From Acidithiobacillus sp. (lineage in GTDB: Bacteria > Pseudomonadota > Gammaproteobacteria > Acidithiobacillales > Acidithiobacillaceae): a stretch of 43,599 nt of DNA. The notes below the pieces were generated by a model, which was not told where the DNA came from, searched no databases, and worked only from the letters and a program-made list of their open reading frames with translations. Below, one piece after another: positions 4,418-43,599 of this stretch. Numbering within the stretch: the first letter of the stretch is position 1; each line of letters begins with the position of its first letter. Position numbers and translations under genes: made by a program. Location: NCBI RefSeq assembly GCF_023256195.1, contig NZ_JAGDWX010000013.1, positions 87,443 to 131,041 of the forward strand, in the 5' to 3' direction.

Positions 4418-5515
4418 ATGAAAATCCGGGTAGAACGCGATACGCTTTTGCCCATGCTCGCCAGTATGGTCAGCGTGGCGGATCGACGGCCGATACAGCC
4501 CATACTCTCCCACCTCTTAGTCAAGGCAGAGGGAGAATCCCTAAGCTGTGTGGCCACGGATCTCGAGGTGCAACTGTACAGCCACGTAGCAGCCCAGGTA
4601 GAACAAGCGGGTGCCTGCGCGATACCGGCCCGCAAGCTCTACGACATCTGCCGCTCCCTGGCGGAAGGGAGCCAGATCGATATCAGCCGAGACAAGGAGC
4701 GCATCGCGCTGCGCTGTGGTTCTGCGCGCTTTCATCTGCAATCGCTGCCCGCAGAACAGTTTCCGGAAAGCGGTGCAGACGACTCCCTCTTTTCCGGACA
4801 CTGCAGCGGCACGGCGCTGCGGGAAGCCCTCTCGGTAGCCGCTACGGCCATGGCCCAGAACGATGCGCGTTTCTTTCTCAACGGGGTCCTTCTGGAAGTG
4901 GCGGAACAGGAACTGCGATGTATCGCTACCGACGGTCACCGCCTTGCACGTATGACCCTGCCTTTTGCCCACGCTGAGGAACTACCCACCTATCAGGGCA
5001 TCATGCCGCGCAAGGCCGTACTCGAACTCAGCCGCCTGCTGGGTGAAGAAGACGTGGAGCTGCGCTTCGGCCACAATGCCATCGTCCTTGCCAACGATAC
5101 CCTCCAGTTCCGCTGCAAGCTCATCGATGCCCGTTACCCCGACTACCGTCGGGTGATCCCCTTCGGCCATCCCGAGCGAGCGCAGTTGGATCGCCAGTCT
5201 CTGAAACAGGCCTTGACTCAGATCAACGTGCTTTCCAGCGACAAGAATCCCGCTTGCGTCCTCAATTTCCGGACAGAGACGCTGGGTCTGCGCAGCCGAA
5301 ATGAAGAGCAGGAAGAGGCCGAAGTGGAAATTCCGGTGCAGTACAGCGGTGCCGGTCTGGAAATCGCCTTCAACAGCCACTATCTGGCCGACTCGACCCA
5401 GATCTTTACCGACCCAGAGATTGCCGTGCAGCTCAAGGACAACAGCAGCAGCGTGCTGTTTACTCCCCTGGAAGGAGACAACCCGCTGTATATCGTCATG
5501 CCCATTCGCCTGTGA
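4418..5515 (+). CDS. dnaN: DNA polymerase III beta sliding clamp
   Basis: Ring-shaped dimer that tethers DNA polymerase III to DNA and docks many repair proteins. The protein has 365 residues, the usual size (366 in E. coli). It begins MKIRVERDTLLPMLASMVSV and shows the three clamp repeats, with RPIQPILSHLLV in the first and GVLLEV...ATDGHRLARM in the second. It ends in YIVMPIRL, the conserved C-terminus that forms part of the protein-binding pocket. GGGGGAGAG sits 6 nt before the ATG. It follows the candidate oriC, and recF starts one base after its stop, so dnaN-recF-gyrB are probably co-transcribed. Confidence 0.98.
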   Translation: MKIRVERDTLLPMLASMVSVADRRPIQPILSHLLVKAEGESLSCVATDLEVQLYSHVAAQVEQAGACAIPARKLYDICRSLAEGSQIDISRDKERIALRCGSARFHLQSLPAEQFPESGADDSLFSGHCSGTALREALSVAATAMAQNDARFFLNGVLLEVAEQELRCIATDGHRLARMTLPFAHAEELPTYQGIMPRKAVLELSRLLGEEDVELRFGHNAIVLANDTLQFRCKLIDARYPDYRRVIPFGHPERAQLDRQSLKQALTQINVLSSDKNPACVLNFRTETLGLRSRNEEQEEAEVEIPVQYSGAGLEIAFNSHYLADSTQIFTDPEIAVQLKDNSSSVLFTPLEGDNPLYIVMPIRL

Positions 5516-5516
5516 G

Positions 5517-8995
<3,479 letters not shown>

Positions 8996-40200: not shown

Positions 40201-42036
40201 ATGTGCGGAATTGTCGGTGGCGTGGCGGATGGCGACGTTTTACCCCATATTCTGGAGGGATTACGCCGTCTGGAGTATCGCGGCTACGATTCCGCCGGGA
40301 TTGCGCTGGTGTCTGCCAAGGGCGGGATCGTGCGGCGACGCAGCGTGGGCAGGGTGACGGAGCTCAGCGCCCTCATAGCCCAGGAGGCGCTGACGGGTAG
40401 CGTAGGTATCGGCCACACCCGCTGGGCGACCCACGGCGGCGTGGTCGAGCACAATGCCCATCCTCTGCTTTCGGGCGAGGACATCGCCGTGGTACATAAC
40501 GGTATCATCGAAAATTTCGTCGAACTGAGACGTGAGCTTCAGGATCAAGGCTATGTCTTCAGTTCGGAAACGGACACCGAAGTCATCGCCCACCTCATCC
40601 ATCGCGAACGATCTCGGCAAGCCGATCTGCGGTCCGCGTGTCGGGAGGCCATAAGACACCTGCGCGGCGCCTTTGCCGTGGCCGTATTGAGTCGTCGGGA
40701 TCCGGATCGTATCTGCGTCGCCCGAATGGGTTGCCCGCTTTTACTGGGACTCGCGGAGCATGGGCACTATTTCGCCTCCGATGTTGCGGCACTTCTGCCG
40801 GTTACGCGCCGTGTCGTCTATCTCGAAGACGGCGATCTGGCGGAAATCACCCGAGAGGATATTGCCATCGAGGATGCCGCCGGTAATCCCGTCCAGCGCA
40901 CCGAGCACTGGAGCCAGCTGAGCCCTGCGGCCATCGATCTCGGACCCTATCGGCATTTCATGCAAAAAGAGATCCACGAGCAACCGCGGGCCATTGCCGA
41001 TACCCTGGAGGGTGCCTTGCAGGGCCCCTTCTCGCTGCAGGATTTGTGGGGAGCCGATGCGCGCGAGCGCTTGGCCCAGGTGCGCAGCGTGCTCTTCCTG
41101 GCCTCCGGCACCAGCCACTACGCCAGCCTCGTTGGGCGCCAATGGATCGAAAGCATCGCCGGCATACCCGCCCATGCGGAGCTCGGGCACGAGTATCGCT
41201 ATCGCGATTCGATTCCCGACCGACACCAGCTCATCGTCACCTTGTCCCAGTCTGGAGAGACCCTGGATACCTGGGAGGCGCTGCGCCGTGCCAAGGATCT
41301 GGGACACGACGACACCCTGTCCATCTGCAACGTGGCGGAAAGCGCCATCCCGCGGGCATCCGCCCTGCGCTTCATCACCCGGGCCGGGCCGGAGATTGGG
41401 GTCGCTTCCACCAAGGCCTTCACCACCCAGCTGGTAGCGCTATATCTGCTGGCCTTGTCGCTGGCCAGCCAGCACGGTCGTCTGGACGACGCGAGTCTCG
41501 CGCATCATCTGGAGCAGCTGCGGCAGTTGCCGAGCGGTGTGCAACAGGCCTTGAATCTGGAACCACAGATTCAGCTGTGGGCGCAGCGTTTTGCCGACAA
41601 GGAGCATGCGCTTTTTCTGGGCCGTGGGCTGCACTACCCCATCGCCCTAGAGGGGGCTCTGAAGCTCAAGGAGATTTCCTATATCCACGCCGAGGCCTAC
41701 CCCGCTGGTGAGCTGAAGCACGGACCCCTGGCTCTGGTGGACCAGCACATGCCGGTGGTGGTGATTGCCCCCAACGATCGACTCCTGGAAAAACTGGCGG
41801 GCAATATGCAGGAAGTGCGGGCGCGGGGCGGAGAGCTCTACGTCTTTGCCGATCTGGATAGCCATTTCGAGGCGGCGGCAGGTATTCACGTCATCCGCCT
41901 GCCGCGCCACGCCGGCCTGCTGTCCCCGGTGTTGCACGCTATACCGGTACAATTGCTTGCCTATCATGCCGCACTGGTGAAAGGGACTGACGTCGATCGT
42001 CCGCGTAACCTTGCCAAGGCCGTCACGGTCGAGTGA
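40201..42036 (+). CDS. glmS: Glutamine-fructose-6-phosphate aminotransferase (isomerising)
   Basis: Converts fructose-6-P and glutamine to glucosamine-6-P, the first step of amino-sugar synthesis. The protein has 611 residues (609 in E. coli). Cys2 in MCGIVGG is the N-terminal glutaminase nucleophile; [22 protein letters not shown] and HNGIIENF are conserved. Two SIS domains follow, with [23 protein letters not shown] and [19 protein letters not shown]. The protein ends [11 protein letters not shown], the codons of which form the TnsD-recognised part of attTn7 in other bacteria. The longer open frame upstream overlaps glmU and is not used. AAGGAG sits 12 nt before the ATG. A transposon end begins 25 nt after the stop. 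Confidence 0.98.
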
Positions 42037-42055
42037 GATAGGCGGCCAATTGGCG

Positions 42056-42060
42056 GCGAC
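42056..42060. repeat. Candidate 5-bp target-site duplication
   Basis: GCGAC immediately before the TGT of the transposon end. Tn7-type insertion duplicates 5 bp; the second copy would lie beyond the window, next to the other end, so this is a prediction. Confidence 0.35.
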
Positions 42061-42130
42061 TGTTCGCAGGCAATAAAATTTGATTATGGGTAATATAGTT
42101 TGCGCATGGGCTACAAAGACTGATCATGAC
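42061..42130 (+). mobile_element. Tn7-like transposon right end at attTn7
   Basis: Begins TGTTCGCAGG at 42061, 25 nt after the glmS stop, the same distance as Tn7 in E. coli. Three directly adjacent 20-bp repeats follow: CAATAAAATTTGATTATGGG (42071), TAATATAGTTTGCGCATGGG (42091) and CTACAAAGACTGATCATGAC (42111). Eight positions are identical in all three, and the other twelve agree in two of three. The majority sequence starts CAATAAAGT, as the Tn7 TnsB site does. Tandem, closely packed sites are the mark of the Tn7 right end, which also faces glmS in Tn7. The spacing and repeats are seen; that a TnsB relative binds them is inferred. Confidence 0.82.
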
Positions 42131-42620
42131 GACCCTGTCCTGTCGCTTGGTTCGACGTGTGGCCCTGGTCCCTAGGCATAACCCCCGTAGCACGAGGATT
42201 GCCGATTCGTGACAGCAGGTTCCCTTGGGGGGTACTATTGATCCACTAAACGGCTGCTTGAGACTGAAAACGGACGTTGGGGCAGGACTGGTGTTGGCCA
42301 CGGTGGCCTTAAGTTTTCTCCCCGTGATTCCTAAGGTCTGATGATAGCACCCTGCTGGGATTGCCTGCCTGTAGGGGGTTCAGTACATTACGGTCAATGA
42401 GTCTCGGAGCCACCAGACACAATGAGGCATTTTGTCTGATCTAAAACCAAGATGAACATATGTGCGGAGTGTGATCAGAGGCTTACTGGTTGGAGTTATA
42501 TTGTATAGCTAATAAGCTGTTAGCTGAGTTCCGTCTGGTCGGTTTCCTCCTGTAGATCACTTCTACGAAGGTATTGGCAACCATGATAACTGACGCTGGA
42601 TTATTTTTGAGGAAACGGCC
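42131..42620. other. AT-richer spacer inside the Tn7-like element, no gene recognised
   Basis: About 490 bp with clearly lower GC than the core genes and no convincing reading frame. The only plus-strand frame near the transposon end is about 28 codons (42126-42212), too short to interpret. A small perfect hairpin GTAGA-TCACT-TCTAC lies at 42552-42566. A minus-strand frame (42023-42301) crosses the transposon end and is not credible. No tnsA-like coding sequence is visible here, although Tn7 itself has tnsA close to this end. Confidence 0.5.
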
Positions 42621-43193
42621 ATGGTTAATTATGCGGTGCTGGCAATTATCTTTATGCTGCTTATGGAGTACTATATATGGTGGCGTTACCGCAGATATGA
42701 CCAAGTCGATGTTCACAGTCGAGCATTGATTGACAGGTATTATTTCTGGTTTGTTGGTATGTCGTTATTTATAAGTTTTCTTTTGGGAACCGTTATATCT
42801 AATGCGCTTCATCTGCCCATATTTGCCACCACTCCTTGGATTGTTTTTGGTGCCACTCTATTCGTCCTGGGCTATGCCCTACGTTTTTACGCAATAGCCA
42901 TTTTGCGAGATGCTTTCTCTGTAGTGCTGCGCGTGGCAAAGAACCAACAATTGGTAGAAAAAGGCCCTTATCGTTACGTTCGTCATCCATCCTATACGGG
43001 TGGTATTATCGCGTTTCTTGGTCTGGGAGTGCTTTCCGGCAATCCTGCAGTGCTAGTTCTTCTTGCTCTAACTACTCTTTACCTGTACTTGATTCGGATC
43101 CGTCGGGAGGAATCGATCCTCATCGCTAATCTTTCAGGCTACCCAGAATATTGCAAACGTACACCGAACCGAATTATCCCTTGGATTCTTTAA
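42621..43193 (+). CDS. ICMT/phospholipid-methyltransferase family membrane protein
   Basis: A 190-residue membrane methyltransferase of the isoprenylcysteine carboxyl methyltransferase-like family. Hydrophobic helices are at about 5-20, 43-63, 72-92 and 125-155. The SAM-binding signature is GPYRYVRHPSYTGGI (near 113-128), and the C-terminal block is EESILIANLSGYPEYCKRTP followed by NRIIP, the family's E-E...G-Y-x-x-Y...R-I-P pattern. The substrate is unknown; bacterial members act on lipids, quinones or other small molecules. TGAGGAAA lies 7 nt before the ATG. Base composition and codon use are much more AT-rich than the core genes to the left, and it sits inside the Tn7-like element, reading away from the glmS-side end, so it is probable transposon cargo. 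Confidence 0.8.
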   Translation: MVNYAVLAIIFMLLMEYYIWWRYRRYDQVDVHSRALIDRYYFWFVGMSLFISFLLGTVISNALHLPIFATTPWIVFGATLFVLGYALRFYAIAILRDAFSVVLRVAKNQQLVEKGPYRYVRHPSYTGGIIAFLGLGVLSGNPAVLVLLALTTLYLYLIRIRREESILIANLSGYPEYCKRTPNRIIPWIL

Positions 43194-43599
43194 TGTCTGT
43201 ATATTCCATGTTTTCAATGAGGCAGGCAACCTGGGCCGCCATGGAACCTTATGTCTTGGAGCCAGCCCGACAAGGTTGGTACCCTTCGGCTGATCCCCGG
43301 GGCGAGGCAAGCAAGATTGCGATTCCCTTAAGGACTCGATCCTGCGAAGCAGATCAATCGGTTGCCTCACCTTTGCCAGCATGTTCGGACGGTATCCTAG
43401 TCCTGCCTTTGGCAAGAGCCTGCACAGAGTGACCCAAAGTAATAACGCCTTTACTCAAGGATGCTGCAGCTCCAGGAAGAGTGAAACCGAAAGACTCTAG
43501 CGCCAAGTATAGCTGATATAAACCAAGGTTTCCTGAACACCGCGTTTCTGGACATCTCCGGGCCTGATCAAGGCCCGGAATCCGACTAGAAACCCATCT
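43194..43599. other. Unassigned sequence to the window end
   Basis: About 400 bp with no gene I can support. Open frames of about 93 codons exist on both strands (43151-43432 plus, 43134-43415 minus), but both overlap the methyltransferase end, lack a ribosome site and show no known motif. This could be degenerate cargo or a non-coding part of a mobile element. Confidence 0.45.
43558..43578. repeat. 8-bp inverted repeat near window end
   Basis: CCGGGCCT-GATCA-AGGCCCGG: a perfect 8-bp stem with a 5-nt loop. There is no T-run on the plus strand. It may be a terminator stem or an element-end structure; the sequence stops 21 bp later. Confidence 0.45.

Follow-up and report, generated by a model that had tools for sequence, protein, structure and literature searches.

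The window analysed here is a stretch of 43,599 nt (contig C8, positions 87443-131041) of an Acidithiobacillus sp. genome of 37 contigs and 1.98 Mb. Its glmS gene, an open reading frame starting MCGIVGG, occupies positions 40201-42036 on the forward strand and closes with a TGA stop at 42034-42036; TnsD is expected to recognise the 3' coding end of the gene, and binding of TnsD to the glmS 3' end has been described (PMC2918618). On the 25th base past the stop, by direct reading, begins a TGT (42061-42063) that opens the terminus TGTTCGCAGG (42061-42070, forward strand). It is immediately preceded by GCGAC (42056-42060) and followed by three abutting 20-bp TnsB-like sites (42071-42130), all on the same strand: CAATAAAATTTGATTATGGG (42071-42090), TAATATAGTTTGCGCATGGG (42091-42110) and a decayed CTACAAAGACTGATCATGAC (42111-42130). 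Farther on, again on the forward strand, lie a gene for a 190-aa ICMT/PEMT-like methyltransferase (42621-43193; Pfam PF04140 at 2.4e-19, PF04191 at 6.4e-18) and the solo remnant of an IS110-family element (43249-43428). Because the window stops exactly at the end of C8, the DNA right of 43599 is not directly readable, and no contig-end overlaps extending C8 beyond that position were found; contig C30 and one end of C15 seem, from their overlaps, to terminate in N, as withheld or masked stretches would.

A Tn7-like right end at attTn7

A sequence-only reading of this DNA had pointed to the TGT, the GCGAC before it, three phased 20-bp repeats after it and an abrupt change of composition, and had proposed that attTn7 is occupied by a Tn7-like right end facing glmS. 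The features are all there, with two repeats good and the third decayed. The position-wise majority of the three 20-mers begins CAATAAAGT, which had been called identical to the start of the Tn7 TnsB site, and the prototype Tn7 right end, located in 65 plasmid records, indeed carries its first CAATAAAGT 10 nt inside the TGT, the same offset as in the window. Pairwise identity among the 20-mers is just 14, 12 and 10 of 20 and a general repeat finder did not report them, so that the case for three sites rests on relatives. Scored with a TnsB-like site matrix built from relatives' ends only, the sites reach 21.9, 26.4 and 6.6, the top background score being 8.6 (about 80 kb, both strands); a scan of the window tail for a left end gave no additional site exceeding background, in either orientation.

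Within the 1.98-Mb genome, a 29-nt terminus pattern matches at exactly three places when as many as 3 mismatches are allowed, namely the window end and both ends of an element on a sibling contig, C16; the pattern was drawn up after the C16 left end had been seen, and its reversed control gave 0. One match in Armatimonadetes came without further sites and was taken as chance. GC content is 63.7% ahead of 42061 and drops to 48.1% behind it, every 1,539-bp segment upstream being higher than the latter value (minimum 55.8%), and positions 42061-42130 stand at 38.6%. Rfam gave no match over 41900-43599. With the relatives' ends, the matrix scores and C16 in support, the Tn7-like right end at attTn7, oriented towards glmS, is confirmed, and it is a known kind of thing in the Acidithiobacillaceae.

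Occupied sites in related genomes

The glmS 3' region was matched in 25 of 29 family genomes, and a Tn7-like right end lies 22-28 nt behind the glmS stop in 20 of the 24 others, some of these ends having been read by eye. Nine of the 20 occupied sites have tnsA immediately after the right end, its start falling about 90-150 nt within that end, and 11 do not; in the window there is no tnsA at that place. Ends of the window type accompany complete tnsABCD sets in relatives. The terminus TGTTCGCAGG recurs away from glmS in two of them (G021:C1:2297465 and G025:C23:97484), similarity to the window beginning at 42060/42061, and the genes behind it in G021 are assigned by Pfam to TnsA, a Mu-type transposase, TniB-like and TnsD; after its glmS, G021 has a right-end remnant with one site. 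In A. ferrooxidans, Tn5468, with the gene content tnsABCDorf5, lies beside glmSU (PMC2621215).

The alignment with unoccupied sites that had been proposed as a check was made with A. caldus, which lacks an end of this kind behind glmS but whose intergenic DNA is too dissimilar to define a clean empty site. The DNA behind the C16 left end likewise gave no glmS-adjacent match in the 29 family genomes.

A complete element on a sibling contig

The first 55 nt of C16, read backwards, are exactly those of glmS at window positions 41933-41987; from there on the two contigs diverge. Exact overlaps of this length also join other contig ends in the assembly, and we therefore read C16 as a second route leaving glmS where the assembly forks. 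The right end is repeated on it at 96% identity, and at position 5098 of the reversed contig stands an inverted terminus, TGTACGCGGGTAATAGAGTTTGATCATGG, followed by GCGAC (C16:41528-41532); the two ends bound an element of 4,970 bp, GCGAC-TGTTCGCAGG ... CGCGTACA-GCGAC, with a perfect 5-bp duplication of which the window holds the glmS-side copy. Both the inverted end and the second GCGAC, which the sequence-only reading had said to look for, are therefore present, and its view of GCGAC as one copy of a target duplication is upheld. For the left end, the relatives' matrix gives two sites on the inverted strand, scoring 26.1 and 20.4 and separated by 55 bp. Taken together, the window right end and both C16 ends have TGT...ACA termini with arrays of putative TnsB-type sites that abut in the right end and stand apart in the left. 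The two C16 termini have 23 of 30 bases in common, and nowhere in about 160 kb of background strand is even 19 reached.

From position 8,553 of the reversed contig, C16 is syntenic with the A. caldus DNA downstream of glmS. We take C8 and C16 to represent haplotypes of two strains and consider a tandem duplication less likely. That all DNA right of 42061 belongs to the element, as had been supposed, is likely for the window haplotype, whose contig stops at 43599 without reaching a left end. Decay of the third TnsB-like site affects both haplotypes, and the window copy may therefore no longer move. The C16 cargo comprises two adjacent genes with GmrSD_N domains and one for a 134-aa protein without family match; the nearest PADLOC models (Orf5, HEC-06, SspE) suggest a defence-type function.

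Elements without transposition genes

No Tns homologue was found at E<1 in the C16 element or the window tail. The bin contains neither TnsB nor TniQ, as is also true of A. caldus, whereas the same searches were positive in 14 (TnsB) and 15 (TniQ) of the 29 family genomes; a TnsC_Int family search was silent everywhere, controls included, and is not counted as evidence. Thus the tnsA, tnsB, tnsC and TniQ/TnsD genes that mark an autonomous element are missing from the C16 element and from the window up to 43599, as are TnsB and TniQ from the bin, which speaks against the earlier expectation that transposition genes lie beyond the window. Since the genome looks metagenome-assembled, a helper element could sit in an unbinned contig.

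Elements of this kind occur elsewhere in the family. In Acidithiobacillus sp. YTS05 (G022), attTn7 is occupied by a tns-less element of 26,225 bp (G022:C1:69364-95588) that is flanked by CGACA duplications. The second CGACA directly adjoins the beginning of a further right end, which insertions interrupt; this end belongs to an element with tns genes, TnsB lying about 5 kb on. By eye, the cargo of the 26-kb element includes a large open reading frame resembling a nitrate reductase subunit (L038/L039). A further genome (G017) has a 16,462-bp tns-less element flanked by TCAGA, away from glmS, and holds its 16-kb cargo block twice, at 96-99% identity, with one copy inside Tn7-like ends (L192 538-16999; L197); some genes of this block look, by eye, like sulfur metabolism. 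Together with C16 this makes three tns-less elements with both ends and a perfect duplication, in three species, two of them at attTn7 and one elsewhere. From the YTS05 and G017 precedents, insertion by proteins supplied in trans is a reasonable inference. Right/left pairs with the look of mini-elements, one about 270 bp apart and enclosing little, after glmS in G017 (L191 380-720), and others in G002 and G010, are without a perfect duplication and were not counted.

A proposed cargo slot bounded by inverted repeats

Window and C16 match as far as 42267 and have nothing in common beyond, the break falling inside the motif GACTGAAAGCGGWCRTT. On the forward strand of the window this delimits a right module (42061-42261), 96% identical to C16 up to the junction motif, where the 337-nt alignment ends 5-6 nt into the motif, and a start inverted repeat, GACTGAAAACGGACGTT (42262-42278), which we propose as the cargo-slot edge on account of its junction behaviour and of an expectation of 0 in window shuffles. 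The window thus holds the right module and the start repeat, and its cargo, the methyltransferase gene, differs from that of C16 exactly from the start repeat onwards. The motif GACTGAAAGCGGWCRTT has 28 copies across the 29 family genomes (reversed pattern 0), and in five genomes it is found some 190-210 nt into a Tn7-like right end that has no tnsA behind it; several other tns-less right ends, in G002, G010, G009, G014 and G003, have no start repeat.

Two segment comparisons bear on these boundaries, in each of which matching DNA downstream of the motif is attached to different DNA upstream. Contig C35 and the window are alike from 14 nt before to 167 nt after the start motif, and the window's last positions (43519-43599, forward strand, up to the contig end) match the tail of another inverted-repeat-bounded unit on C35 at 84% over 81 nt. 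In the duplicated 16-kb segment of G017, similarity spans from 8 nt before the start motif to a second motif, GAACGACTGCTTTCGCTGC, an inverted relative of GACTGAAAGCGGWCRTT. The start repeat lies 203 nt from the right terminus in C16 and in YTS05 and 188 nt in G017, and the end repeat 186 nt from the left terminus in C16, 197 nt in G017 and, with mismatches, 1,680 nt in YTS05. End and start repeats gave 19 and 25 matches in 1.0 Mb, reversed controls 0; as the C16 sequence was known when the end-repeat pattern was drawn up, independent support for that pattern comes from the G017 duplication boundary. Outside the family the end motif is not enriched (5 matches, one of them in the genome studied here, versus 4 for the control in 114 class genomes), and a text search with the sequences found no published description of the inverted repeats. 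From the three elements and the two segment comparisons, the cargo appears to sit in a conserved inverted-repeat slot, and the three tns-less elements appear to share one scaffold: right module, inverted repeat, exchangeable cargo, inverted repeat, left module.

Discussion

Taken as a whole, the locus is probably best explained by a tns-less Tn7-like element that occupies attTn7 from 42061, was inserted in trans and carries its cargo in the inverted-repeat slot. That the element is most likely tns-less, unlike the Tn5468 precedent, is well supported, with the sibling haplotype as support. Seemingly devoid of transposition genes of its own, it was probably moved by borrowing another element's machinery: TnsABC and TnsD from a related autonomous element would act in trans, TnsD reading the glmS 3' end. 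The cargo would lie between the start and end inverted repeats, lineages differing in cargo on the same scaffold, so that the GmrSD-type pair of C16 and the methyltransferase gene of the window would be different cargo of one scaffold, and the window haplotype would be expected to finish with an end repeat and left module shortly past 43599.

Other readings of the same DNA have to be weighed against this one. That the Tn7 likeness is a chance feature of an ordinary AT-rich glmS terminator region might be argued from the three repeats, just 50-70% identical to one another, but it is already refuted by the matrix scores, by the same type of end with tnsA behind it in relatives, by the same end away from glmS and by the inverted end with its duplication on C16. 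An autonomous element of the Tn5468 type, its tns genes lying past the contig end, has precedents in the nine relatives with tnsA directly behind the right end at the glmS site and in Tn5468 itself; with tnsA missing from where it would be expected inside the right end, and with a bin devoid of TnsB and TniQ, we regard it as highly improbable.

Two further possibilities are unlikely to a lesser degree. The window could hold a solo right-end remnant that has lost its tns genes and left end, the DNA behind 42130 being an unrelated later accretion; the decayed third site, the IS110 remnant and patchwork behind the end, the one-site remnant after glmS in G021 and the 11 of 20 occupied sites without tnsA would all fit such decay. 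This remains an unlikely account, for the sibling haplotype, 96% identical in its right end, has an intact left end and a perfect duplication, and its right module and start repeat are spaced as they are in complete elements. Quite unlikely, too, is an arrangement in a single chromosome of glmS, the window element, a duplicated glmS 3' end and the C16 element in tandem, an order that would be compatible with a tns-less element. C8 and C16 are in one bin, and tandem Tn7-like elements do occur in the family, as in YTS05, but what C16 shares at its start is exactly one assembly overlap of 55 nt, glmS is not reached by any further contig end, and a duplicated glmS fragment of at least 105 nt would be needed.

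The element on which we settle, tns-less and at attTn7, resembles Tn7 in lying about 25 nt after glmS with its right end towards the gene, in its TGT and a first site of the CAATAAAGT type 10 nt inside, and in its phased right sites, spaced left sites and 5-bp duplication. It differs in having no tns genes, in its terminal sequence and cargo, and in abutting 20-bp sites where Tn7 has four partly overlapping 22-bp sites. With Tn5468 and the tns-bearing elements of G021, G025 and YTS05 it shares the bacterial family and the target, and its terminus TGTTCGCAGG is that of the tns-bearing G021/G025 type; in contrast to the tnsABCDorf5 of Tn5468, the C16 element and the bin have none of these genes. 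The tns-less 26,225-bp YTS05 element is alike in terminus type, site, start-repeat position, lack of tns genes and perfect duplication, but its 26 kb are other cargo and it lies directly beside a tns-bearing element. Like MITEs and Tn3-derived TIMEs, the element would have kept its ends, lost its transposase and been mobilised in trans; unlike them, it has Tn7-type ends, a fixed target site, the size of a cargo carrier and a proposed internal slot bounded by inverted repeats.

Tns-less elements would escape Tn7-like surveys that begin from transposition genes, and about half of the occupied attTn7 sites in the Acidithiobacillaceae have no tnsA behind the right end. The site would then be a slot for genes travelling on borrowed machinery, including the putative defence-type pair here. 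More tentatively, such elements of Acidithiobacillus relatives might be standing carriers with a fixed scaffold, in which right and left modules (about 200 and 190 bp) enclose a slot bounded by the family-specific inverted repeats GACTGAAAGCGGWCRTT and GAAYGNYYGCTTTCGCTGC. Cargo would be exchanged through the slot by recombination, transport of the carrier to attTn7 would fall to a separate Tn7 machinery, and the window and C16 would represent one carrier in two states. We hold this extension to be possible rather than probable, and the conserved inverted-repeat boundaries raise the testable question of cargo swap inside a Tn7-type carrier.

Several smaller observations concern the DNA inside and beside such slots. 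The IS110-type remnant is the upstream non-coding end of its element, without transposase, and corresponds to a repeat of about 180 nt present in many relatives (11 matches in G002), which is usually located ahead of an IS110 transposase in the loci inspected; the guide (bridge) RNA region that IS110-type elements are expected to have could be part of it. Where units adjoin, end and start repeats stand back to back with a linker of about 33 nt and form a strong palindrome (L198 376-444; L203 minus strand near 314-363). This palindrome is imperfect and ends in GAAYGAC and GTCRTTC, as against the RYYYAAC and GTTRRRY boxes of integron attC sites, and the shared unit stops before its second arm, boxes and boundaries that do not readily match those of integron cassettes. 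C35 and the window have both unit flanks in common (window 42248-42429 and 43519-43599; L008 18155-18336 and 19091-19170) with different genes between them, the methyltransferase in the window and a protein starting MKNQYVGDINDYHKYG on C35.
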